Below, piece by piece: positions 1-13,229 of a stretch of 13,229 nucleotides of DNA (positions are counted from its first letter, which is position 1; each line of letters opens with the position of its first letter). A program made the position numbers and the translations under genes. The notes beneath the pieces were generated by a model. The model was not told where the DNA came from. It saw nothing but the letters and a program-made list of their open reading frames with translations, and searched no databases. The stretch comes from Fidelibacterota bacterium (GTDB lineage: Bacteria > Fidelibacterota > UBA8477), in contig JAIPJR010000069.1 in assembly GCA_021734045.1 (NCBI GenBank), positions 1 to 13,229 on the forward strand, in the 5' to 3' direction.

Positions 1-891
1 ACCCTTTTTCATGAGCGAAAATTTCTAAGCTATCATCCGCCGGAGCGCTTCGGTGATCATTCTCTGATTATTGAAAAAAAGGAGAAGCCCCTGGCCGTCT
101 TCCCGGCTGCGGAGGTGGTACGGGATGGGAAGCGCTGGCTCATTTCCCACCCGGGCGCATCCTATGGTGGCTTTGTCTATCCATTGGAGCTTTCTATCCG
201 GGACAGTTTTGATCTGGTGAATGGCCTGAAGCAGTACGCCCGCCGCCAGGGGTTTGATGCCATCCGACTCACCCTGCCGCCGGCGATTTATCAGCAGCGG
301 GTCTCCAATTACATCGATTTTGCGCTGGTAAAACATGGTTTCGAATACGCCAAGCGCGACATCTCCTCCATGCTCACCATTGAAGCCACACCGGAGGAGA
401 ATCTGGCGAAATTCCGTGCTACCCACCGCACGGCGGTTCGAAAAGCGTTGCGTCAGGGGGTGGAGATTCGGCTTTCTGCTGATTATCCAACTTTCTATGA
501 CATTCTGGAGCATAACCTGAAAATCCGTCACGGCGTCACACCCACCCACACATTGAAAGAGCTCATCCAGCTGAAGGATATGTATCCGGATAAAATTTCG
601 CTCCATGCCGCATTTCACAAAAGCCGGATGGTGGCCGGTGTTGTGAACTTTATCGTGAATCCCCAGGTCGTGCTGGCTTTTTATATCAGTCATGACGAAG
701 AATACCAGCATCTTCGGGCGGTGAATCTGTTGTTCTACGAAATCATCAAATGGTGTCATGCCCAGGGCAGCAAATACCTGGATTTCGGTATTTTCACCGT
801 GGAGATGGAACCCAATTTTGGTCTGGGGCGGTTTAAGGAAAATTTCGGCGCCAGCGGGGTTTTCCGGGATACGTTTCAGTGTGTTTTATAA
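1..891 (+). CDS. FemAB/BioF2-like GNAT-fold acyltransferase, 5' partial
   Basis: The frame is open from the first base, so the true start lies outside the window and 296 residues are visible; the GTG at 115 is internal. The basic segment RATHRTAVRKALRQGVEIRL, followed by a helical stretch, a strand-rich part (AAFHKSRMVAGVVNF) and a KYLDFGIF motif near the C-terminus, is the pattern of the BioF2-like/FemAB GNAT fold (Pfam PF13480 type). Family members transfer acyl or aminoacyl groups from CoA or tRNA to cell-wall or exopolysaccharide precursors in the cytoplasm. It is the first of several surface-glycan genes on this strand, so modification of a sugar or lipid-linked precursor is a reasonable inference. 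Substrate and donor cannot be read from the sequence. Family call fairly sure, exact reaction unknown. Confidence 0.8.
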   Translation, partial: TLFHERKFLSYHPPERFGDHSLIIEKKEKPLAVFPAAEVVRDGKRWLISHPGASYGGFVYPLELSIRDSFDLVNGLKQYARRQGFDAIRLTLPPAIYQQRVSNYIDFALVKHGFEYAKRDISSMLTIEATPEENLAKFRATHRTAVRKALRQGVEIRLSADYPTFYDILEHNLKIRHGVTPTHTLKELIQLKDMYPDKISLHAAFHKSRMVAGVVNFIVNPQVVLAFYISHDEEYQHLRAVNLLFYEIIKWCHAQGSKYLDFGIFTVEMEPNFGLGRFKENFGASGVFRDTFQCVL

Positions 892-899
892 TGCTTTCT

Positions 900-958
900 C
901 CCGAATGTCTCCCTTGGCTGCGCCTGCCCGGGCGAAGCAGGATCGAAGGGCATTCGGG
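900..958. repeat. Long imperfect inverted repeat after the GNAT gene
   Basis: Eight bases after the GNAT stop there is a long hairpin-forming element. CCCGAATG (900-907) plus CCCTT (911-915) pairs with AAGGG (946-950) plus CATTCGGG (951-958), leaving only TCT unpaired in the left arm. A second small stem, CCTGC (923-927) with GCAGG (937-941), sits inside the loop. No T-run follows directly; the T-rich TTTTGTTT comes about 13 bases later. It could be a terminator-like or mRNA-end structure, or one copy of a dispersed palindromic repeat. The pairing is seen directly; the role is unknown. Confidence 0.55.
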
Positions 959-1024
959 CATTATGCTGACTTTTGTTTCACGGCGCCCCTTGGCGATCTC
1001 AGGGAGACGCGCTGATTCAAATAT

Positions 1025-1075
1025 CAAACCAAAGAACCGGTTTGTCTGTCTGAGCTTGTGGAAGACCAAACCGGT
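1025..1075 (+). promoter_or_regulatory. Mutually exclusive hairpins before the GT-C gene
   Basis: GGTTTG at 1039-1044 can pair with CAAACC at 1025-1030 (8-base loop), or, as part of ACCGGTTTG (1036-1044), with CAAACCGGT at 1067-1075 (22-base loop). The two structures exclude each other, as in attenuators. No U-tract follows the second stem, so classical termination is not supported. The structure covers the GTG at 1058, which argues for the ATG at 1103 as the start of the next gene. The 1076-1102 stretch holds no recognisable ribosome binding site. Confidence 0.35.
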
Positions 1076-1102
1076 GTAACGCTATCATCAAATTCTGAAT
1101 TC

Positions 1103-2704
1103 ATGATCAAACCCTTTACCCGCAAACAACACTATCTGATTCTGCTGATTTTAATGGCGGTGACACTCCTGCCACGCCTGCCCTTTGCGGGACCCTATCT
1201 GTACAATGGTGACCCCACCGCCTATTTTCTGGGCGCCGAAAGTATTCTGAACTCAGGTGAATATCTCATCGACGGAAAGGTTTCATTCTGGCCGGTGGGG
1301 ACCTCGCTTACCATGGTGCCCTTTGTCTGGATTGCGGAAACGCTCTTCCACTCAGCCGGTGAATCCGGTGCTTTCTGGCATGGGGTGTTCTTTATGTACC
1401 TGGCGGTGGCGTTCACCTATTTGCTGGGTAAACGCATGTTCTCACCGCTGGTGGGTGTCATGGGAGCGGTCTTGCTCTCCATGGCCGAAAGCCCCTTTTG
1501 GCACAGCGTGAATGCCAACTCAGACACGGCAGCATTGGCAGTTTTGGTGGCTGGTGTGTATTTCATGCTGCTTTTCCTGGATACCCAAACGCCACGGGAT
1601 CTCTTTGCCGCATTTTTCCTGTTGGCATTAACCGTGGTGTTTCGCTGGAATTATATTTTTTTCATGCCGTTGTACCTGCTGTACCTGGTGGGAGACCGGC
1701 GTATATGGGCTTTCACACTTTATCCGAAATTTTGGATTCTCAGCGGCGTGGCTTTTTTAGCAGGACTTTTTTCCCAATTCTGGGTGAATACGGTTCAAAC
1801 CGGGAATCCCTTTTTAATCGGATACGCTCAACTGGGATTTAGCGATCAGTTCTCCTGGAATCCCCTGACCTGGCTGGTGAATTGTGTTCGCATTGTTTAC
1901 CGAGTCATTTTTACCTGGGATTTTTATTCACCCACACTGGCGGCATTCAGTTTCCTCACCATCATTTATGCGGTGCGCCAGCGGCGACGGGACATCCTCA
2001 TGCTGTTTGTACCGTGGGTGGTTTTAGGCTCCCTCTCGGTGATTTATTTCGGGGTAAAACCCCGGCTGCTCATGCCCATTATGCCACCGCTCTTCCTGCT
2101 GGGCGCGGCGGGAATTGAGCAACTCTATGGTTATCTACGCGATGTGATTTCCCGTGAATCATTTCCCTCTCGCTATCTGATTCCGGCTTATGCGCTGGTG
2201 ATATTGCTCCTGTTCGCGCCCATGCTGTCCCGGAGTCTGCTTATGACCTATGGGAATTTTCAGGATAAAAAAGAGATGCAGCAGGCTTTTCGCTGGACGG
2301 GAAATGCGGCCTCGCCGGGTACGACGATTCTCACCCAACCCATCTATGCCGGTCAAAATGACGACTGGTTACGGGCCGGCTGGAAGGTCTGGGCATCCCG
2401 CTATTATGCAGGCCATGAGATGGCCTCCTTGAGTCTTCCGGAAAAATGGCCAGACGACACCGAACGCTGGGTCGTGATTAACCGGTTCTGGTTCGAAGGG
2501 GAGAATATGCGGTTTGATGACACCCGGGAGCTCTCCACCCGGTTTGATTCCTTGCGCCAGGTCTGGAATCTGCAAAAAGTGAAAGAATTTCACGGCAAGC
2601 CCGAACCGGTTTGGCTGAAAAAACTCAACATGCTCAGTTTCTATCCCGTGGATTTTATGGTTTACCGTCCGCGATTTGAAGTCTGGACCAATGCCCGTGA
2701 GTAA
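1103..2704 (+). CDS. GT-C integral membrane glycosyltransferase (GT39/ArnT-like)
   Basis: A 533-residue multi-spanning membrane protein. The first hydrophobic helix (about residues 10-28) is followed by a predicted periplasmic loop with YNGDPTAYF; Asp37 sits where GT-C enzymes of the GT39/GT83 class keep their catalytic or metal-binding acidic residue. Many hydrophobic helices follow to about residue 385. The last 140 or so residues are a mostly soluble, Trp-rich domain. Such enzymes move a sugar from a polyprenyl-phosphate donor to a lipid, protein or glycan on the outer face of the inner membrane. The ATG at 1103 is preferred because the first helix starts shortly after it. A GTG at 1058 would add 15 polar residues and lies inside a hairpin; neither has a clear Shine-Dalgarno site. 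The 3' end overlaps the flippase gene. Donor and acceptor are not determinable. Confidence 0.8.
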   Translation: MIKPFTRKQHYLILLILMAVTLLPRLPFAGPYLYNGDPTAYFLGAESILNSGEYLIDGKVSFWPVGTSLTMVPFVWIAETLFHSAGESGAFWHGVFFMYLAVAFTYLLGKRMFSPLVGVMGAVLLSMAESPFWHSVNANSDTAALAVLVAGVYFMLLFLDTQTPRDLFAAFFLLALTVVFRWNYIFFMPLYLLYLVGDRRIWAFTLYPKFWILSGVAFLAGLFSQFWVNTVQTGNPFLIGYAQLGFSDQFSWNPLTWLVNCVRIVYRVIFTWDFYSPTLAAFSFLTIIYAVRQRRRDILMLFVPWVVLGSLSVIYFGVKPRLLMPIMPPLFLLGAAGIEQLYGYLRDVISRESFPSRYLIPAYALVILLLFAPMLSRSLLMTYGNFQDKKEMQQAFRWTGNAASPGTTILTQPIYAGQNDDWLRAGWKVWASRYYAGHEMASLSLPEKWPDDTERWVVINRFWFEGENMRFDDTRELSTRFDSLRQVWNLQKVKEFHGKPEPVWLKKLNMLSFYPVDFMVYRPRFEVWTNARE

Positions 2705-4160
2705 TGTGGGTACCAACATCAGGCGCATGTCCAAACACACAGCCGTGTATGGTGTGGGGAATATCCTGAATCGGGCGATTACCTTCCTGCTCCTACCGCT
2801 TTACACCAATATCCTCACCACCGCTGATTACGGTGTCCTGAATCTCATCTATCCCTTTCTGGGACTCATGAATGTGGTGTTCATGTACGGGATGGATTCG
2901 GCCTTTATGCGGTTTTTCATTCCGGAGAAGGATGAAAAACGACGCTCCGAAGTTTTCTCCACCGTCTATATCAGCATTTTGGGCTCAACGGCTGTTTTCA
3001 CAGGTCTGCTCTTTCTGCTCGAACCGGTTTTGGCGCGTTCCATTCTGGGAAATGACAATAACCTGCTCTACCTGGCATTCGTCATTTTAGCCCTGGACGG
3101 TTTGTCATTTTTACCGGTGCTCTACTTCCGCAGCGTGAACAAACCGGTGAACTATGTGGCCATCATTTTCGGGGAAGTGCTGCTGAATCTTTCCCTGAAT
3201 ATCCTTTTTGTGGCGGTGTTCCGGTGGGGCATCCGGGGTGTGCTGCTGGCCAATATCTGTAGTTCAACTTTAAAGCTCCTGCTGGCCTCACCTGCCCTCC
3301 TTCACCATCTGAAGCGAATTTTTATTCCACCCCTCTGGCGGGATATTCTGAAATTCGGACTTCCCACCGTTCCGGCCGTCCTCTTCGCCAATATTATCGC
3401 CCTGGGTGACAAATTTATCCTGCGCTATTTTTTCGACGAATCCACCGTGGGGATTTATGCCGCCAGTTATAAGATTGCCATTATTATGGCGCTGTTCGTA
3501 ACGGCGTTCCGCTTCGCCTGGCATCCCTTTTTCCTCTCCATTTCAGATCAACCCGACGCGAAGCAGACTTATTCCAAAATCCTGACCCTGTTTGTCATGG
3601 TGGCGGCATTTCTCTTTCTTTTGGTTTCCCTGCTGGCGCCACCCATTTTGACCACACCGCTTTTCGGGGTGACCATCATTCCCCTGGCATATCAGGCGGG
3701 CCTGAAGGTGATTCCCTGGGTATTGGCGGCCTATATTTTCCAGGGGATGTATGTAAATCTGGTAGTGGGTGTTTACCTGGAGAAAAAAACGCACTTAAGT
3801 CCGCTTTTTACGGGAATCGGGATGATGGTGAATCTGGGAACTAACTTTTTTCTGCTGGGCGTTTTGAAAATGGATTTCATCGCTGCCGGAATTGCCGCGC
3901 TGCTGGGGAATCTGGCCCAGACGATCGCCATTTTCATTGCCACCCGGCGGTTTTATCCCATTCGTTATGAATACGAAAAACTGCTGCTCATTGGCGCTAT
4001 CAGTCTGGTGCTGTTTTTAACGCCCCGCGTCACGGGATTGGAGCAATTCTGGTTTCTGGCCCTGCTGGTGCTGCTCTATTTCCCTCTGTTGTTTCGGTTT
4101 CATATCATTGACCGACAGGTTGCTTTAAATCTGGCCAAACGCGTATTGAAACGACATTAA
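2691..4160 (+). CDS. Wzx-type polysaccharide flippase (MOP superfamily)
   Basis: About 489 residues, hydrophobic nearly throughout, with 12-14 likely membrane helices, the usual size for this family. The N-terminal segment TAVYGVGNILNRAITFLLLP followed by a TADYGVLNLIYP stretch is the hallmark opening of oligosaccharide flippases (polysaccharide biosynthesis/Wzx proteins). These move undecaprenyl-linked oligosaccharide from the cytoplasmic to the periplasmic face of the inner membrane. The ATG at 2691 overlaps the previous gene by 14 bases, suggesting translational coupling. A TTG at 2676 and an ATG at 2727 are in the same frame, and the conserved sequence begins at 2727, so the start is uncertain by up to 12 codons. 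It sits among glycosyltransferases, as Wzx genes normally do. No polymerase (Wzy) is obvious in the window. Confidence 0.88.
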   Translation: MPVSNVGTNIRRMSKHTAVYGVGNILNRAITFLLLPLYTNILTTADYGVLNLIYPFLGLMNVVFMYGMDSAFMRFFIPEKDEKRRSEVFSTVYISILGSTAVFTGLLFLLEPVLARSILGNDNNLLYLAFVILALDGLSFLPVLYFRSVNKPVNYVAIIFGEVLLNLSLNILFVAVFRWGIRGVLLANICSSTLKLLLASPALLHHLKRIFIPPLWRDILKFGLPTVPAVLFANIIALGDKFILRYFFDESTVGIYAASYKIAIIMALFVTAFRFAWHPFFLSISDQPDAKQTYSKILTLFVMVAAFLFLLVSLLAPPILTTPLFGVTIIPLAYQAGLKVIPWVLAAYIFQGMYVNLVVGVYLEKKTHLSPLFTGIGMMVNLGTNFFLLGVLKMDFIAAGIAALLGNLAQTIAIFIATRRFYPIRYEYEKLLLIGAISLVLFLTPRVTGLEQFWFLALLVLLYFPLLFRFHIIDRQVALNLAKRVLKRH

Positions 4161-4168
4161 AAGGATCC

Positions 4169-5278
4169 ATGTCTCCACCATTAAAAATATTGTACCTCCG
4201 AATGGAAGATACCGCCGGAACGCTGGGCATTTTCAAGCGCCAGCATGAGGCCTTGGGGAATGAATGCCGTTATGTGACGCTATTTCGGAGCCCGGAAGGC
4301 TTCCCCCATGATATTGAACTGAACTTGCCCCTGCTGCCGGCCACCGACTGGTTCAAATCCGTAAAACACCAACTGGTGGAGGATGAACAACTTTACACCG
4401 ATGCCACGGGCTACCCGCCCACCTGGCAGGCAAAGTCCTGGTGGCAATCTGCCTTTTTCCACATGCGGGATAAACTCTGGAAGCCGCGGATTCAAAAAGC
4501 CATTGAGCAATACGGGCTGGATGAATTTGACATCTATCATCTGGAAGGCGGCCACGGCTTTCTGCGAATGTCCGCCTGGCCGTTTGATGAATGGGTAGAA
4601 CGGGGGAAGCATCTCCTCATCAACTATCATGGCGCCGACATGCGCACCCGGGGTGTGTTGCCATGGATTGACAATTTGGCGGAAGTCTATACCACCAGTG
4701 AACTGGATCTCATGGAGCGTCATCCGGATATGGATTATGTGTTTTTGCCCTTTGAGGTGGAAAAATTCACGCCCTCCTATGAAAATCACACGCCGCTGCG
4801 GGTGTGTCATGCCACCCGTGATCGGTTCTGGAAGGGTTCGGACACCATAATTGCGGCCTGTGAAAAATTAGCCAAAACCCACGGAATTGAGTTCATCCTC
4901 ATTGAAAATCAGCCCCACGCCAAAACACTGGCCATGAAGGCGGAATGCGACATTTATATTGATCAGGTTTCCAATCTGGGCGGCTGGGGTTATGGCATGA
5001 ATTCCGTGGAAGCGCTCTCCATGGGGCTGGCCTGCTGCACCAATCTCGTCCCGAAATACGAGGCGTTCATTCCGGACCACCCATTCTTCAATGTGAATAA
5101 AGAGAGCCTTTATGACGATTTGGTCCGTTTGATTGAACAGCCGGCACTTATTACAGAATTGCGACAAAAAGGCCGGGAGTGGGTGGAGCGCACTCATTCC
5201 GCGCGGGCAGTGATCAAATCCGTATATGCGTTATATTTGCGGGAAAAATGGATTGGAGCCCTACCCCGTGACCTCTGA
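4169..5278 (+). CDS. GT-B glycosyltransferase (GT4-like)
   Basis: A 369-residue soluble protein. The N-terminal part (KILYLRMEDTAGTLGIFKRQ) resembles the first Rossmann domain of GT-B enzymes, and residues about 115-160 contain YHLEGGHG and INYHGADMR, the kind of His/Gly loops that line the acceptor site. The donor-site signature is GGWGYGMNSVEALSMGLA, with Glu281 at the position of the conserved GT4 glutamate that contacts the nucleotide-sugar ribose. The role inferred is cytoplasmic transfer of a sugar from a nucleotide donor onto a growing lipid-linked glycan. Eight bases separate it from the flippase gene, with AAGGA (4161-4165) just before the ATG. Its end overlaps the next gene by 11 bases. 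Somewhat divergent from textbook GT4 proteins, so the family number is less certain than the fold. Confidence 0.75.
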   Translation: MSPPLKILYLRMEDTAGTLGIFKRQHEALGNECRYVTLFRSPEGFPHDIELNLPLLPATDWFKSVKHQLVEDEQLYTDATGYPPTWQAKSWWQSAFFHMRDKLWKPRIQKAIEQYGLDEFDIYHLEGGHGFLRMSAWPFDEWVERGKHLLINYHGADMRTRGVLPWIDNLAEVYTTSELDLMERHPDMDYVFLPFEVEKFTPSYENHTPLRVCHATRDRFWKGSDTIIAACEKLAKTHGIEFILIENQPHAKTLAMKAECDIYIDQVSNLGGWGYGMNSVEALSMGLACCTNLVPKYEAFIPDHPFFNVNKESLYDDLVRLIEQPALITELRQKGREWVERTHSARAVIKSVYALYLREKWIGALPRDL

Positions 5279-6248
5279 AAATCTATCCCAAAAGACCATT
5301 TCCATCATCATTCCGGCTTATAACAATCTGGCCGGATTGGTGCGCTTGCTGGGGACATTTGAACGGCTCACCTGGCCCCGGGAGCAGATGGAAATTATTG
5401 TGGTGAACGACGGCTCCACCGACGCGACGGCCCGTTTTTTGGATGACTACGATTTTGATTTACCCATTACGCTCATTAATCAGCCCGAAAATCGGGGCCG
5501 TTCCGCTGCTCGCAATGCGGGTCTGAATGTAGCGAAAAATAAGTTTATTCTTTTCATTGATAGCGACATGGAAGCTGAACCGGATTTAATCGAGCAGCAT
5601 TTGAATAGTTATGTGGATGAACAATGCGTGGGCGTGGTGGGTGAATTTTTTCTGCCGCCGTTTGTGCAGAAGAATGTGTGGTTCCGCTATTTGGATGCGC
5701 CGGTAAGGGGGGCGCGTAAATGGCACAAGCAGACCGGTCGCTATTGTCCGGTGCCGTTTCAATACCTGCTTACCGGGAATCTCTCGGTTCGTCGGAACGC
5801 CGCACTAAAAGCCGGCGGTTTTTCCCAGCATTTGGATGGGTATGGTGGTCAGGACTCGGAATTTGCCTATCGCATCATTCAGGCCACGGGCGGCTACTTT
5901 GCGTTCAACCCCAACGCCATTGCCTATCACCAGCACGAGCCCCTAAAAAAAACGGCAGTAAAACTGCATGAGTACGGCCGGAAATCGCTGCCCGTCATCC
6001 TGGAGCGCCACCCGGAACTGTCCGAATACCTGCCAGCCCGACTTGTGGAGCCATTGCGCTGGTCCGATTTGTTCTCGCTCAAGCTGCAAAAACTGTGGGC
6101 GTGGGTGTTTTTGCGTAAACCATTTCTCTTTATCGCCCGGGGATTGCGGCTGGTAACACCCGATTTTATCGCATTTCCCATGATCCGGTTTATCATGGCA
6201 TACCATACGCTCACCGGGTATCGAAAATCAATAAGGAAGCATCCTTAA
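5268..6248 (+). CDS. Family 2 GT-A glycosyltransferase
   Basis: 326 residues from the GTG start. The GT2 signature is complete: TISIIIPAYNN opening strand, VVNDGSTD with the nucleotide-binding Asp (about residues 45-52), the DSD metal-binding motif in LFIDSDMEAEPD (98-100), and GGQDSEF (about 194-199) at the usual position of the catalytic ED-type motif. The C-terminal 90 residues are helical and basic, with two weakly hydrophobic stretches that could lie on the membrane. It should transfer a sugar from a nucleotide-sugar donor on the cytoplasmic side. GTG at 5268 is chosen because GGAG (5255-5258) lies nine bases upstream and the conserved domain begins 10 residues in. An in-frame ATG at 5226 would give a longer overlap with the previous gene. 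Last gene of the operon; its stop lies inside the terminator hairpin. Confidence 0.88.
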   Translation: MTSENLSQKTISIIIPAYNNLAGLVRLLGTFERLTWPREQMEIIVVNDGSTDATARFLDDYDFDLPITLINQPENRGRSAARNAGLNVAKNKFILFIDSDMEAEPDLIEQHLNSYVDEQCVGVVGEFFLPPFVQKNVWFRYLDAPVRGARKWHKQTGRYCPVPFQYLLTGNLSVRRNAALKAGGFSQHLDGYGGQDSEFAYRIIQATGGYFAFNPNAIAYHQHEPLKKTAVKLHEYGRKSLPVILERHPELSEYLPARLVEPLRWSDLFSLKLQKLWAWVFLRKPFLFIARGLRLVTPDFIAFPMIRFIMAYHTLTGYRKSIRKHP

Positions 6249-6280
6249 ATTATTAAAATTTAGGGGTGCTTCCGTTCTTT
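6235..6280 (+). terminator. Intrinsic terminator of the glycosyltransferase operon
   Basis: GGAAGCATCCTTAAAT (6235-6250) pairs with ATTTAGGGGTGCTTCC (6258-6273) along its whole length, with only two G-U wobbles. It is followed by GTTCTTT. The TAA of the GT2 gene (6246-6248) is inside the left arm. On the opposite strand the wobbles become A-C mismatches, so it should work better for rightward transcription, though a T-rich run also follows on the minus side and it lies at the end of the convergent minus-strand block. Confidence 0.8.
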
Positions 6281-6552: not shown

Positions 6553-7749
6553 TCAGGCAACCCACCGCCCGCTGGCGAACCACGCACTGTATATAACCAG
6601 GATGAGTATCGAGAGAATTATTAAGGAGATTCTCAGGGTGTATTTCATTTTTCCGGAGAGTACAGCTAAGACCATATAAACAGGAAAGAAAAGTGCCAAA
6701 TGTCGCGGGAAGGACATTAATGGATTTCCAGCCGGACCGTGATTGATCAGGAGAAACAGCATACCACCTGCCAGGTAAATCGCATAACTGCGCCTTAGAT
6801 GAAACCAACTCCAAACCGCCATGGAAATTCCGATCAGTGCGAATCCCAGATTTTGGATGGTCAATAAGCGGCTGAACAACAGTGGCGAGACATTTTTACC
6901 GGTGACGGCTGATTGGATTCCATGAAAAAAGGTTGACCAGGGAAACATGCTCATCCGGTCCCATTCTAAAGATTGAAGTGCAACGTACACATTCAATCCG
7001 TTTAATGTCCCGGCCTGCCAACCCAGGTATCCCATATATGCGAAGAATCCCAAGGGTGCAATGAGCATTCCCAACAATACCATGACCTTCTCTTTGCGGG
7101 ATTGTGGTTTATGGTGGAAGTATTCAACGAAATAGGGAATGGCCAACAGTGTAGCAAGAGGTGTGGTGGACCCTGCAAAAAATATCAATACCCCGCTTAG
7201 AAAAAATGAACCCTGTCGTTCAAAATAGATGCTTCCAATCGCCAGCATCAGAAACAACGATTCCGGGTAAAATGAGACGAAAAAAAACGAAACCGGTGAG
7301 AAACATATCCACAGAACACTATAAAACGCTGTAGGTCGGTCCGAATCATATAAGACCAATTTATACAGGAATAAACCGGCTCCGGCAAAGCTCCCAATCG
7401 AAATGATCAAACCACTCCAAAGGATTGGGATATTCAATAAACCTGATAAAGCGTTGCATAATAGGGGATATCCGGGGAAAAAAGCTCTTTCGATTCCATC
7501 GGGAGAATAGCCTATCGTTGCGATTTTTAAGTAATACAAGGCGTCCCAACGCACGAACCACGATGCCAAACCATTTCCTAAACTTCGGTGAGGTCGTTCT
7601 GAACCACCCCAGTCCAGAAAGTGTTCAGCCATGTAAACGCCCAAATATCCCGAAAGCAATATCAGCGCAGTTGAAACGCCGGCAATGATGAAGACTTGTT
7701 GCCACCAGGGCAGGAGAGAGAATCGATGAACTGTTTTATTACCGGTCAT
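6553..7749 (-). CDS. PIG-V-like integral membrane mannosyltransferase
   Basis: 398 residues with about 9-11 membrane helices. After the first helix (about 17-36), a predicted outside loop carries WFVRWDALYYLKIATIGYSP (residues 64-83), then RAFFPGYPLL (88-97). The RWDxxxY and FFPxYP pair is characteristic of the PIG-V/GPI mannosyltransferase 2 family (Pfam PF04188, GT76), which has many bacterial members; Asp69 is the likely catalytic acid. Members use polyprenyl- or dolichyl-phosphate-mannose as donor. A C-terminal GNPLMSFPRHLALFFP stretch fits the last conserved loop of the family. Acceptor and sugar are unknown. The ATG at 7749 has no clear Shine-Dalgarno site, only an A-rich leader with the palindrome ATCGATCGAT. 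It stands apart from the plus-strand glycan cassette, converging with it, so a shared pathway is only a guess. Confidence 0.78.
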   Translation of the reverse strand: MTGNKTVHRFSLLPWWQQVFIIAGVSTALILLSGYLGVYMAEHFLDWGGSERPHRSLGNGLASWFVRWDALYYLKIATIGYSPDGIERAFFPGYPLLCNALSGLLNIPILWSGLIISIGSFAGAGLFLYKLVLYDSDRPTAFYSVLWICFSPVSFFFVSFYPESLFLMLAIGSIYFERQGSFFLSGVLIFFAGSTTPLATLLAIPYFVEYFHHKPQSRKEKVMVLLGMLIAPLGFFAYMGYLGWQAGTLNGLNVYVALQSLEWDRMSMFPWSTFFHGIQSAVTGKNVSPLLFSRLLTIQNLGFALIGISMAVWSWFHLRRSYAIYLAGGMLFLLINHGPAGNPLMSFPRHLALFFPVYMVLAVLSGKMKYTLRISLIILSILILVIYSAWFASGRWVA

Positions 7750-7900: not shown

Positions 7901-10078
7901 CTATTTTGCCAGCAACATTTTCTTCGATTTTATCCAACCGTTAGACTTCAAAACATAAAAATAGACCCCGCTGGCTAATTCCGAACCATCGAAACGAATC
8001 ACATGGTTACCCTGTGTCTGGTATCTATCGACCAATTGAATCATCTCCCGGCCAGTGATGTCACACACGTGTAAGTCAACATGCCCTGAAACAGGCAACA
8101 TGTAACGTATGGTGGTGGCTGGATTGAAAGGATTGGGGAAATTTTGGTCTAAACGCATTTCAGTGGGTGTGACCGGTTCTTCCTGCTCCACGGCTAGTTG
8201 TACGCCTCCCGGTTGGTACACCGATAATCCGCCACCGACCGTACCAATCCACATATTTCCCTGATTGTCAGAGGTCAGGGCATGGACAAAATTGTGGGTC
8301 AACCCGGAGTTATCTGTACTGAATCGTGTCCAAACAGCGCCATCAAACCGCACCAGCCCGCCGGAAATCACCGACCCCAGGGTACCGAACCACATATTAC
8401 CAGCTATATCCGAATCAATGGCATAAACCTGGTTGGCGGGTAGGCCGGAATTGGCCCAGGTGTACACAGCCCAGGTAAACTGATCAAAGGCCGCCAGACC
8501 GTACGTGGTACCGATCCAGATGCTGCCATCGCCATTTGTATAGAGGCTTAAAATATGATTTCCCGGCAGGTCAGAATTGTCCGTGTTATAATGAATCCAG
8601 GTTTCTCCATTATATTCAGCAACACCGTTATCATACGTGCCGACCCATACGGTACCCGATTCGTCAATCTCTAATGCGGTAATGTAATTCGCGGGAAGGT
8701 TTGAATGGGTCGTATCAAAAATCATCCAATCCAATCCATCGTACATCGCCAGTCCGGCGCTTTTGGTCCCCACCCAGATACGATTTTGTTCATCGACCAC
8801 GAGGCTTTGGATGTCATTGCCCGGAATGTCGGAGTTGGTCGTATCATAGACCGTCCAGGTCGTCCCGTCAAAAGCTGCCAGGCCGGATTGATACGTACCA
8901 ACCCAGAGGGTTTGATTCTGATCCACAGCCAGGGACAGTATATAGTTACCCGGCAAGTCGGAATTGGTTGAGTCATAAATTGTGGATTCAGTGCCGTGGA
9001 AAACGGCTAAACCATTACGGGTGCCCGCCCAAACACGGTCATTCTGAGAATCTTGGGCAAGCGCATATACCCGGTCATCCGGTAGCTGACGCACGGATGG
9101 CGGGAGATATTGGGTTCCTGACACGCCATCAAACTGCACCAAACCGTTATATGTACTCAGCCAAATGTTGTCGTGGGAGTCTGCTGCCAGAAGGTTGAAA
9201 AAATACAGCGACCCCTGGTTATTTAATTCAATTGTTTCCCATGAGAATCCATCAAATCGGCGTAATTGAAAAAAGGAACATATCCACACTGTCCCAGAGT
9301 TGTCGATTGTAAGATCTTGTACCTCATCTAAGTCCGACTCGAGAGGCAAATGGACTATCCAGGTTTGATTCACATGTTCGAGTACTTGGTTTGACCACTG
9401 TTGGGTTACCCAGAGTTCATTCTCCGGCGATACGGTAATGGATGTAATCTTCTCATCATTAAGTGGGGAATTGATCGTGTCAAACACCGTCCAGATGCTA
9501 TTCGTCAATTTGCCAATTTGCCCTTCAGTAGTTCCGACCCATATATCACCGACACTATCAACTGCCACAGCTGTGATATTATTTGAGGGAATATTTGAGT
9601 TCGTGGTGTCGAATATGGTCCAGTTACCATTCATGTATCTGAATAATCCCCGCAGACCTGTACCTATCCAAAGTTCATCTCCGTTAACGACCATACAGCG
9701 AGGATAGGGCTGGATTCCATCACTTGTATCGGGCAGGGGATAAACCGTCCATTCCTCCTCATGAAATGACACGAAATTATTTCCGGCAATCATCCACAAC
9801 ACATTTGCCGCATCCACATAGATTTTTTCCACATAGTTGCCCGGGATGTCAGAATTTTCCGTCGTGTAGTTTTGCCAGTTCTCCCCATCGAACCGGATCA
9901 ATCCGTTGTCGAAGCTACTCGTCCATTTGTTACCATTGGTATCAACGGCCAATGTCCAAAATTCACCTGTTAATCCCCGGTTGCGGGAGTCAAAATTGAC
10001 CCACTCACCCGACTGGGCGAATAGACTGCTGACACTGATCACCAAAAGATGAACAGCAACCCGAAAACTCATTTTCAT
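7901..10078 (-). CDS. Secreted double beta-propeller protein with T9SS type A tail
   Basis: 725 residues from the ATG at 10078. An in-frame ATG at 10144 would put 22 extra residues before a clear signal peptide (MKMSFRVAVHLLVISVSSLF, cleavage near residues 20-22). Residues about 40-626 hold 14 repeats of about 43 residues with an aliphatic-W-x-G-T anchor, GLxxFDGxxW and a DTTNSxIPGN loop: the 'two-component regulator propeller' repeat (Pfam PF07494 type). Fourteen blades imply two seven-bladed propellers. The last 83 residues form a T9SS type A sorting tail, starting LDQNFPNPFNP and ending KSKKMLLAK, which directs export across the outer membrane and release or anchoring at the surface. There is no membrane helix, Y_Y_Y domain or histidine kinase after the propellers, so it is a stand-alone extracellular propeller, ligand unknown. 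No clear ribosome binding site; a candidate promoter lies at 10142-10170. Confidence 0.88.
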   Translation of the reverse strand: MKMSFRVAVHLLVISVSSLFAQSGEWVNFDSRNRGLTGEFWTLAVDTNGNKWTSSFDNGLIRFDGENWQNYTTENSDIPGNYVEKIYVDAANVLWMIAGNNFVSFHEEEWTVYPLPDTSDGIQPYPRCMVVNGDELWIGTGLRGLFRYMNGNWTIFDTTNSNIPSNNITAVAVDSVGDIWVGTTEGQIGKLTNSIWTVFDTINSPLNDEKITSITVSPENELWVTQQWSNQVLEHVNQTWIVHLPLESDLDEVQDLTIDNSGTVWICSFFQLRRFDGFSWETIELNNQGSLYFFNLLAADSHDNIWLSTYNGLVQFDGVSGTQYLPPSVRQLPDDRVYALAQDSQNDRVWAGTRNGLAVFHGTESTIYDSTNSDLPGNYILSLAVDQNQTLWVGTYQSGLAAFDGTTWTVYDTTNSDIPGNDIQSLVVDEQNRIWVGTKSAGLAMYDGLDWMIFDTTHSNLPANYITALEIDESGTVWVGTYDNGVAEYNGETWIHYNTDNSDLPGNHILSLYTNGDGSIWIGTTYGLAAFDQFTWAVYTWANSGLPANQVYAIDSDIAGNMWFGTLGSVISGGLVRFDGAVWTRFSTDNSGLTHNFVHALTSDNQGNMWIGTVGGGLSVYQPGGVQLAVEQEEPVTPTEMRLDQNFPNPFNPATTIRYMLPVSGHVDLHVCDITGREMIQLVDRYQTQGNHVIRFDGSELASGVYFYVLKSNGWIKSKKMLLAK
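8249..9925 (-). repeat. Fourteen propeller repeats, period about 43 codons
   Basis: The anchor Trp codons of the first and last units fall at 9923-9925 (residue 52) and 8249-8251 (residue 610): 13 intervals averaging 42.9 residues, or 129 bases. The left part as drawn here (units 8-14, about 8250-9050) is GC-rich, with 57-58% in two sampled lines, and its units are closely similar. The right part (units 1-7) is AT-richer, 37-47% in five sampled lines, and more diverged. This suggests recent amplification or conversion in the C-terminal propeller. Confidence 0.75.
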
Positions 10079-10125
10079 GGTATTATCCCATTTTTCGTTC
10101 AGACTTACAACACATGAAGGTAAGG

Positions 10126-10214: not shown

Positions 10215-10409
10215 TCAGAACAGCAGCAACATCTCACGCAGGGTCTTGGCCGCCAGAACAGCAGATATCCCGGCTGGATCATACTGCGGCGCTAGTTCCA
10301 GGACATCACAACCCACCAGATTGATGTCATTCTTGATTGCGCTAAAAATTGAAAAAATCTCGTGGGGCGATCCACCGGCAGGTTCGGGTGTACCGGTGCC
10401 GGGGAAACC
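10215..10409 (-). pseudogene. Agmatinase/arginase-family C-terminal remnant
   Basis: The minus strand reads GFPGTGTPEPAGGSPHEIFS at the start of a 64-codon open stretch, then IKNDINLVGCDVLELAPQYD and PAGISAVLAAKTLREMLLLF, ending at TGA (10215-10217). This is the unmistakable end of a ureohydrolase (agmatinase, SpeB-like): the PGTGTPEPGG metal-site loop, the VGxDVxExxPxYD strand and the final helix. The first three quarters, with the metal-binding His and DxD residues, are missing, so it cannot be active. It begins directly behind the TGA of the upstream exported-protein gene and in the same frame. GC is about 57% in the line counted, higher than in the genes to its right, which suggests that it is older native DNA cut by an insertion, deletion or replacement. 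Confidence 0.82.
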
Positions 10410-11537
10410 TCAATCTAAAACCCGGCGAAATGTTTTCAGTGTCATTAGCGCTGATTTGAACTGGTCCGGTTCGGGAGGATGCAGGAGTGAAAATACAGCG
10501 TTGTACTGCTCCGCTGGATTTTGACGGGATTGAAGCGTGAAATAATATTCACCGCCCATCCAACAGGGTCGCGTTTTATAGTGCGCTGAAATAATTTGCC
10601 AGCGTTCCAATTTCAAGCCAGCCCGCAGCCGCTGTTCCCTTTCCTGTGAAGATTCACGATACAGCTCTTCGGGTAGATTTAGTGCCTGCCGGATGACTGA
10701 ATGGAAATCCTCGGTTACCACTTGGTGGTCCCCCGCCACGACCCACTGATACAAACTATCCCGTTGTGGTTGTGTTTGCATCCGAACGATCTTGCGGGGT
10801 TCCGGCACGGGAAAACTTAGCGGGTTGTAGACATAAGGAACATGGAAACCGGCCGGGAAATAGTAAGCACCCAAATCCATTGATCTATCCATTTGTTTCC
10901 AGAAATCCGGACTGCCCTCTAAAACCTGATATTGAAACTCAAAGCCACCGTTTTTCGCAGCAAAAGCTAAAATGAGCGTAAACCGACGCTTTTGCTTCTC
11001 CCAGGGCCAGCCATGATATTCACTATTGAACATGATAATCGCCGGCAGGGTGTCATGAACTGGGCGAATATAAATTAATGCTTGATCGTTTTTCCCTGGC
11101 GGAGGCAAAATGGATTTTCTTAAATAGTCTTGTGGTGACGTCCTTATGGTGGTTTTTTTAATCGGGCTGGTGGGCGAGACACCTTGCCAAAAATAGCAAT
11201 GGTTGGGCATATTTATCAGATCTGCCTGTTGCCACGCAATATGCTGCTCAGAACTAATTGATATAAGTTCCTCTGCAATTTGCCGTGTAAAGCCCGCATC
11301 GAAATACATGCCGGTGAGGATATAATTTGAATGAAGACCATGCCTTTGATTGAACGGTTGCCAAACTGGCTTGACCAGGGTCGCGAGAACAGAATCACTT
11401 TTTGTAACTTTCCCGGTTGAATCACAACCGGCGTACGCACCGCTTGGCCAAACGGATAAAACGCCCAAGAGAAAAAGGAGATAAGCGTGGTTCCGTCCTC
11501 GCCAGATCATCATTGTGCGGTGTGATGGCCTATTCAT
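10410..11537 (-). CDS. Exported protein, second of a paralogous tandem pair
   Basis: 375 residues, family not recognised. A hydrophobic helix (about 19-31) followed by SGAYAGC makes a signal peptide, cleaved after AYA; Cys38 could be lipidated, but Tyr at -3 is a poor lipobox. The mature part is homologous to the product of the gene just upstream: W59QPFN, LTG (74-76), DTLPAI (162-167), KRR (183-185), QYQV (202-205), RDSLYQW (259-265), LQS (335-337) and EQYNAVFS (343-350) all have counterparts in order. Composition is rich in beta-strand and aromatic residues, so a periplasmic or surface beta protein is plausible. The ATG overlaps the upstream stop by eight bases, with AGGTGG three bases before it, implying translational coupling. 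Its own TGA abuts the agmatinase remnant, so the C-terminus could have been reset by that junction, although the last residues still align with the sister protein. Confidence 0.75.
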   Translation of the reverse strand: MNRPSHRTMMIWRGRNHAYLLFLLGVLSVWPSGAYAGCDSTGKVTKSDSVLATLVKPVWQPFNQRHGLHSNYILTGMYFDAGFTRQIAEELISISSEQHIAWQQADLINMPNHCYFWQGVSPTSPIKKTTIRTSPQDYLRKSILPPPGKNDQALIYIRPVHDTLPAIIMFNSEYHGWPWEKQKRRFTLILAFAAKNGGFEFQYQVLEGSPDFWKQMDRSMDLGAYYFPAGFHVPYVYNPLSFPVPEPRKIVRMQTQPQRDSLYQWVVAGDHQVVTEDFHSVIRQALNLPEELYRESSQEREQRLRAGLKLERWQIISAHYKTRPCWMGGEYYFTLQSRQNPAEQYNAVFSLLHPPEPDQFKSALMTLKTFRRVLD

Positions 11538-12630
11538 GATCCACCTGCTTTAGAGAATCCAGGATCATGGGGACACCCTCAAATACGCCCTTTCGATAGT
11601 GTTGATCATAATATCGAATTGAAAACCTGGCGTTATATTGCTCCTCACGATTTTCCTTCGATTGAAGTACAAATTTGTAAAAATAAAACAGAGCCCACGG
11701 ACGCATAGTTACCTCAGCCTTTACAACAACCCACTTTTCCGGATGTAGAGTATTCACCAGAAATTGATGGTGCTTTTCTGGATTGAGTGAATCCCAGTTC
11801 TCAGGGAAAGGCAAATCAATTCGGGGACCTAATGCGATGTTATCATAAGTCTTGAGCCTATGGGGGCCAGATATAATCCATTGAAAAAGACTGTCCCGCA
11901 GGGATTGTGACAGAATGTCAAAAGTCCGCTGAATTCTGATGCGCTGGTTGTGGGAACTCTGACTTGGATTAACATCCTGCTTAAACCACAGCCCGTATGG
12001 AAAACTAATCTGGTGTTTGATCTGCCTGTCCTTCAACGGATTGGGTGTTAATACCACAACCTGATATTGACAGGATGTTCGATCTCCGTCACGAAATAAT
12101 GCCAAAATAAGTACATAATCGCGGCGTTTGAATAACCTGAACCCAGGGTTGTATTTTCCTTTGAATATGACAATCGCCGGGAGTGTATCATTGAGTGGTT
12201 TCACGTAACTCAATGCCAGGTCATCCGGCTCCGATTGGGACACCATCCCGGATAGCAACTTCAGCGGTTGGTCGGCTTCCACCGTATGCCAGTGATCCCC
12301 CCTGGGAATAAACGGCTTAAAAAAGGTCCCGGCATATTTCTTCAATAAATCTACCGGGTACCACACAAGCCGTCCGGAATCATTCTGCGCGAAAATGTCC
12401 TCCCCTATGGCGTTGATAAAATCGGTATCATGGTAGTTGCCTGTTAGCATGGTATCGCTAAACAGATGGTACTTGTGATTAAAAGATTGCCAGGTGGATG
12501 AGAAGATGGCCTGAGGTTGAATTCCAACCGATGCTTGCCCCGTTTCAATTGGCGTTAATGGCGATTGAGCCATGCATGTGGACAGACCGAAAAGCAAGAT
12601 AAGCCCGATTTTCTGAGATGGATGTTCCAT
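11530..12630 (-). CDS. Exported protein, first of a paralogous tandem pair
   Basis: 366 residues, family not recognised. Signal peptide: KIGLILLFGLSTCMAQ, cleaved near residues 21-22. The mature protein shares with its downstream neighbour W47QSFN, LTG (62-64), DTLPAI (148-153), KRR (168-170), QYQV (188-191), RDSLFQW (245-251), RP (310-311), LQS (322-324) and EQYNARFS (330-337). The regions between (for example 95-130 and 205-235) differ strongly in sequence and length, so the duplication looks old. No catalytic motif, membrane helix or T9SS tail is visible, pointing to a periplasmic or outer-membrane-associated role. A good ribosome binding site, AAGGA, lies six bases before the ATG. The preceding cysteine-rich gene ends 29 bases upstream and is probably in the same transcript. 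Confidence 0.78.
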   Translation of the reverse strand: MEHPSQKIGLILLFGLSTCMAQSPLTPIETGQASVGIQPQAIFSSTWQSFNHKYHLFSDTMLTGNYHDTDFINAIGEDIFAQNDSGRLVWYPVDLLKKYAGTFFKPFIPRGDHWHTVEADQPLKLLSGMVSQSEPDDLALSYVKPLNDTLPAIVIFKGKYNPGFRLFKRRDYVLILALFRDGDRTSCQYQVVVLTPNPLKDRQIKHQISFPYGLWFKQDVNPSQSSHNQRIRIQRTFDILSQSLRDSLFQWIISGPHRLKTYDNIALGPRIDLPFPENWDSLNPEKHHQFLVNTLHPEKWVVVKAEVTMRPWALFYFYKFVLQSKENREEQYNARFSIRYYDQHYRKGVFEGVPMILDSLKQVDHE

Positions 12631-12659: not shown

Positions 12660-13229
12660 TTACGGACAATATTGATTGATATGGTTCTGAGTAGCTTGAA
12701 TAGCATTATTTGCTCGATCTAACTCCAATTGATAGTAATCTCTAAGACTCCCTAACTGGGGCTTAATATTGAGACAATTAAAACTTGGCTCGTCTTCAGG
12801 AATACAATCAAGCATTCGAGCAATTCGATTTCTGATATCTATCAACTGCCCAATGTCTGCTTCTGATTTGCAGCAGATCACGATTTCATTGAGTTCATTT
12901 CTGATTTCAGGTGTCATTTCAACACCTCCTGCATCGCCGCAATAGGCTTCATAATCACCCCAAACGGGTACTCCACTACTTCCAATTAATTGCCAAGCCG
13001 GGTTGTTTTGCCACCAGGCACACAAGACATCACGGCCAAGCCTGTTTTCAATGGTTGAATGCAAACAAACTCGCTCTGGGTCGGAATATGCATCCCCTCC
13101 CAGTTCTGACTCGACATGCCTTGAGTCATAACCTTCACCAAAATTATTTATACAAGAAAATATATCAAAGATATAATCATCATATTGCTCTCTTTCCTGA
13201 TCAATTTCAGACTGATCGCAGTTCTGATC
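12660..13229 (-). CDS. Cysteine-rich protein of unknown function, N-terminus outside window
   Basis: The frame ending at 12660 is open to the window edge, giving 189 visible residues; the TTG at 13064 is inside the gene rather than its start. I do not recognise the family. The visible part is acidic (DQSEIDQEREQYDDYIFD) and contains ten cysteines, including a CC pair and a penultimate Cys, an even number that suggests disulfides in an exported protein. A Trp-rich patch (AWWQNNPAW) and a C-terminal helix (LELDRANNAIQATQNHINQY) follow. There is no sorting tail. GC is low (35-40% in lines counted). It precedes the paralogous exported pair by 29 bases on the same strand, so it is likely co-expressed with them. 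A secreted or surface protein is the best guess; its main domain may lie beyond the window. Confidence 0.65.
   Translation of the reverse strand, partial: DQNCDQSEIDQEREQYDDYIFDIFSCINNFGEGYDSRHVESELGGDAYSDPERVCLHSTIENRLGRDVLCAWWQNNPAWQLIGSSGVPVWGDYEAYCGDAGGVEMTPEIRNELNEIVICCKSEADIGQLIDIRNRIARMLDCIPEDEPSFNCLNIKPQLGSLRDYYQLELDRANNAIQATQNHINQYCP

Follow-up and report, generated by a model that had tools for sequence, protein, structure and literature searches.

The last 64 codons of an agmatinase gene (speB), with their stop, survive as a dead relic behind the stop codon of an unrelated exported-protein gene in the window, the 13,229-nucleotide stretch of DNA that we analysed. An exported-protein module was inserted into the operon to which speB belonged, or replaced that operon, and the relic is very probably the leftover of the agmatinase of the genus after this foreign module had been joined into speB without extended homology. 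Of the two other genomes of the genus (G001 and G002), G002, from a sister species, carries an intact agmatinase. The features on which the analysis rests are as follows.

6553..7749, minus strand: mannosyltransferase-like (PIG-V) gene, intact; the syntenic anchor, with only its two ends present in G002.
7901..10080, minus strand: gene for a two-component-propeller protein that carries a Por secretion tail; it separates the relic from the PIG-V gene.
10215..10409, minus strand: agmatinase (speB) relic, last 64 codons plus stop, without an ATG start and without the metal-ligand segments.
10405..10412, no strand: the junction; homology to G002 speB reaches as far as 10407, the stop (TGA) of the exported gene occupies 10410–10412, and the two bases between are assigned to neither.
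10410..11537, minus strand: exported-protein gene 1, 375 aa, intact, without a Pfam family.
11530..12630, minus strand: exported-protein gene 2, 366 aa, a tandem paralogue of gene 1 with 31% identity and an equivalent last residue.
12660..13229, minus strand: third gene, running off the contig end, so that only the C-terminal domain of a larger protein is present.

On the minus strand, the window reads KTFRRVLD, a stop, GFPGTGTPEPAGGSPHEIFSIFSAIKNDINLVGCDVLELAPQYDPAGISAVLAAKTLREMLLLF and a second stop, so that the 64 codons are bounded by two stops; past the first of them, the frame goes on as GFPGTGTPEPAGGSPHEIF and ends with REMLLLF and the stop, down to 10215. The relic lies in the frame of the preceding exported-protein gene 1, which is uninformative because one junction in three would give the same result. 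Residues 2–61 of the relic match positions 219–278 of the 280 positions of the Pfam Arginase profile (PF00491) with 57.9 bits and an E-value of 1.5e-15, above the curated Pfam cut-off of 22. Aligned with G002 speB, the relic is 78.8% identical in DNA over 193 bases, gap-free, and 51 of its 64 residues are identical to those of the G002 agmatinase, a likeness far beyond chance. The sequence-only reading had claimed a 64-codon ureohydrolase end right behind the TGA of an unrelated gene and had proposed a profile search of these codons; both the profile match and the residue identity bear it out.

The C-terminal 60 residues of the relic thus resemble agmatinase (SpeB, ureohydrolase superfamily), whereas the first ~220 residues, which hold all metal ligands, and the ATG are absent; of the agmatinase, the relic keeps the C-terminal fifth and is no enzyme. 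It covers profile positions 219–278 only, and a complete ureohydrolase domain, including the metal-binding aspartates and histidines, is not present. In the G002 agmatinase, the metal ligands of which we take to be those established for E. coli SpeB, the last ligand motif is the DxD (DLD) of FDLDFYDP, which precedes the position of the junction. Searched in all six frames, the whole genome that carries the window (G000; an assembly of 2.54 Mb in 119 contigs, 92% complete) returned the relic as its only ureohydrolase match. The search of GTDB contigs with the relic returned ordinary agmatinases only, at most 56% identical (from Clostridia, Colwellia, Campylobacterota, and others), with no record from the same genus among them.

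The intact counterpart lies on contig C22 of G002, where speD, a pyruvoyl arginine decarboxylase gene, speE, and speB form an operon, each gene with Pfam support. Window positions 6163–6249, 6557–6705, 7628–7707, and 10215–10407 correspond, in order, to C22 positions 1–84, 100–248, 1843–1922, and 4115–4307; the glycosyltransferase end, both ends of the PIG-V gene, and the speB end have the same order and orientation in the two contigs. From C22 position 6627 onward, G002 is continued in G000 by contig C16, the first base of which lies inside speD and is homologous to G002 from that base. C16 also carries the counterparts of the stretch upstream of speD and of the genes past it. The G000 assembly holds no intact polyamine genes: speD is represented only by a 5′ piece of its first ~38 codons at C16 base 1, which accounts for the absence of a detectable AdoMet decarboxylase family in G000, and the searches found neither the arginine decarboxylase gene nor speE nor most of speB. 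These 2.3 kb of the operon are on no G000 contig. C35, the window contig, breaks off at 13229 within the third gene, and the other edge of the module lies beyond; no overlap was found between the ends of C35 and C16. The gap between these two contigs could contain part of the operon. In G001 (82% complete), agmatinase, arginine decarboxylase, and AdoMet decarboxylase were all not found, and the sole spermidine-synthase-family match sits within an 808-codon frame. DNA identity to G002 is 77%–88% near the boundary (window 1–1679, 6557–6705, and 7628–7707; C16 1–157) versus 70%–73% in the C16 housekeeping block, a contrast that is perhaps due to recombination between lineages.

Neither G001 nor G002 has the incoming module, which is single-copy in G000. 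Its third gene matches the C-terminal domain of thrombospondin type 3 repeat proteins in G003 and G004, with about 29%–31% identity. Exported-protein gene 2, like gene 1, has no Pfam family, and for neither were relatives found in 245 genomes of the phylum or in viral contigs. In G003 and G004, a ~350-aa exported protein comes next after the homologue of the third gene, at the same position, and its start overlaps the end of the homologue; this arrangement suggests one kind of module at different genomic places in different species. Profile comparison did not confirm the ~350-aa proteins as homologues of genes 1 and 2 (E-value 0.34), and the likeness is one of position only. The thrombospondin-3-repeat exported protein itself appears split into two frames, at different places, in G004 (L146, 3205–6488) and G003 (L147, 4260–7490). 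In the 2.8 kb present in the contig of the module, the far end of which is beyond 13229, we saw no transposase, integrase, tRNA, or mobility gene, and no terminal or informative repeats or target-site duplication.

The edge between module and relic is sharp. DNA homology to G002 speB extends from the speB stop up to base 10407 and then ends abruptly; upstream of 10407, the anchored extension against G002 speB has a score of 0, which does not exceed that of any control segment, and 14.5% of control segments reach the local score. The alignment across the junction to a syntenic relative without the exported genes, which the sequence-only reading had suggested, is the one made here with G002, and it places the edge of homology at 10407. 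The VLD that ends gene 1 aligns with the end of gene 2. Because gene 2 ends at the equivalent residue, the TGA at 10410–10412 most probably belongs to gene 1 and marks its natural C-terminus. No RNA family, tRNA, or terminator-like site was found at the junction.

Compared with G002 speB, the relic has a pN of 0.109, a pS of 0.56, and a dN/dS of 0.115, a weak estimate given its 64 codons. This value falls inside the range of the intact neighbouring genes compared with G002 (0.016 to 0.162), which points to little change having accumulated in the relic as a pseudogene and to most of its divergence having passed while it was a working gene. The loss of agmatinase was therefore probably recent.

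We propose that in the ancestor speD, the gene of a pyruvoyl-dependent arginine decarboxylase, speE, and speB would have formed one operon beside a surface-polysaccharide cluster. A foreign module, comprising 2 exported partner proteins and the terminal part of a protein of the thrombospondin-3-repeat type, would have been joined into speB without extended homology, just past the codons of the last metal-binding aspartates; the module finishes at the stop of its last gene. The joining, which would be recent relative to the species split, may have occurred by illegitimate recombination, either homology-facilitated or as a plain insertion-deletion, and was probably an ordinary event of this type. 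In homology-facilitated illegitimate recombination, an insertion comes together with a deletion, and the joint shows either 3–10 bp of microhomology or no microhomology (PMC3240628); an effector-module displacement that leaves remnants in Vibrio cholerae has been proposed to arise in this way (PMC5361080). The present case resembles this process in that foreign genes stand against a truncated resident gene with a sharp, non-homologous edge (10405–10412) and conserved flanks, and in that a resident gene of the sister genome G002 has kept both ends with its middle exchanged. By contrast, one edge is visible here; the defining deletion and the homologous anchor would have to be sought beyond the contig, past the end of which the other edge of the module lies, and microhomology would have to be read against the donor. 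Homology-facilitated illegitimate recombination is the route that we infer and favour. Our literature search returned no directly comparable agmatinase pseudogene scar.

Two other readings concern the relic itself. The sequence-only reading placed the junction within VLD-coding sequence common to both genes, with the stop replacing the conserved proline and one codon lost. DLDVLDP-x-x-F-PGTG is indeed the commonest form among the agmatinases aligned, many of which read DLDVLDPSVFPGTG, and the window sequence at this place is VLD, stop, G, F, PGTG. However, the orthologue in G002, the one available from the genus, does not show the expected ending near DIDVLDP but reads DLDFYDPAYFPGTG (FYDPAYFPGTG); the relic is homologous to it from the F, gap-free, and with the homology starting at this F no codon is missing. 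The zero extension and unexceptional local score upstream, together with the match of VLD to the end of the tandem paralogue, also argue against a shared VLD, and although a VLD at this place in the relic's own ancestor is formally conceivable, we regard this reading as highly improbable. What stands of the claimed molecular scar is the insertion or replacement and the missing agmatinase N-terminus, seen against the syntenic intact operon of G002; the shared-VLD junction and the lost codon are without support. Continued use of the 64 codons, for example as a tail of the exported protein through read-through of the TGA, deserves still less credence. The open frame, the conserved residues, and the low dN/dS would fit such use, but divergence before the loss accounts for the last of these, and the exported protein stops where its paralogue stops. 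Moreover, the relic lacks every metal-ligand motif of the enzyme and has an alanine where a glycine is conserved in 98% of about 100 homologues.

The junction rests on a single genome of the species, in a fragmented assembly, so that the assembler might have wrongly joined the exported-protein gene to a stray speB end. Against such a chimera, the relic lies where synteny with the PIG-V gene would place speB, and the junction has no repeat of a size that confuses assemblers; we consider it very unlikely. Within the explanation that we prefer, a joining of the module into speB, a pure insertion is given slightly less than an even chance. The 5′ part of speB, speE, the arginine decarboxylase gene, and the rest of speD would then still be present in the gap between C35 and C16, as is consistent with homology from the very first base of C16 inside speD, with the end of C35 inside the module, and with a genome that is 92% complete. 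Two findings weigh against a pure insertion: no contig carries any of these 2.3 kb, and no transposase, integrase, tRNA, or terminal repeat was seen in the part of the module present.

Gene content differs elsewhere at the same boundary. The place of the propeller gene (7901–10080) is taken in G002 by a PAS histidine kinase gene. A mirror scar is found in G002 on C22 (L028, 99–249 and 1842–1946), where codons 8–41 and the last 50 codons of the PIG-V gene lie on either side of an unrelated frame of 477 codons that has no Pfam family, about 2 kb away; the gene is whole in G000 and G003. Such scars thus recur at the boundary. It is nevertheless unlikely that the polysaccharide-to-polyamine boundary is a hotspot at which gene bodies are exchanged with their ends kept, independently in the 2 sister species (agmatinase in one, mannosyltransferase in the other). 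If true, it would point to a recurrent recombination route in the lineage.

As a genomic scar, the relic is clean but ordinary. Genome annotation should mark the 64 codons as a pseudogene fragment, and they add one case to the counting of insertion-deletion scars, with the general picture unchanged. For the lineage, the relic provides one precise entry junction of a patchily distributed exported-protein module, and a positionally anchored record of how agmatinase, and probably the polyamine pathway too, was lost.
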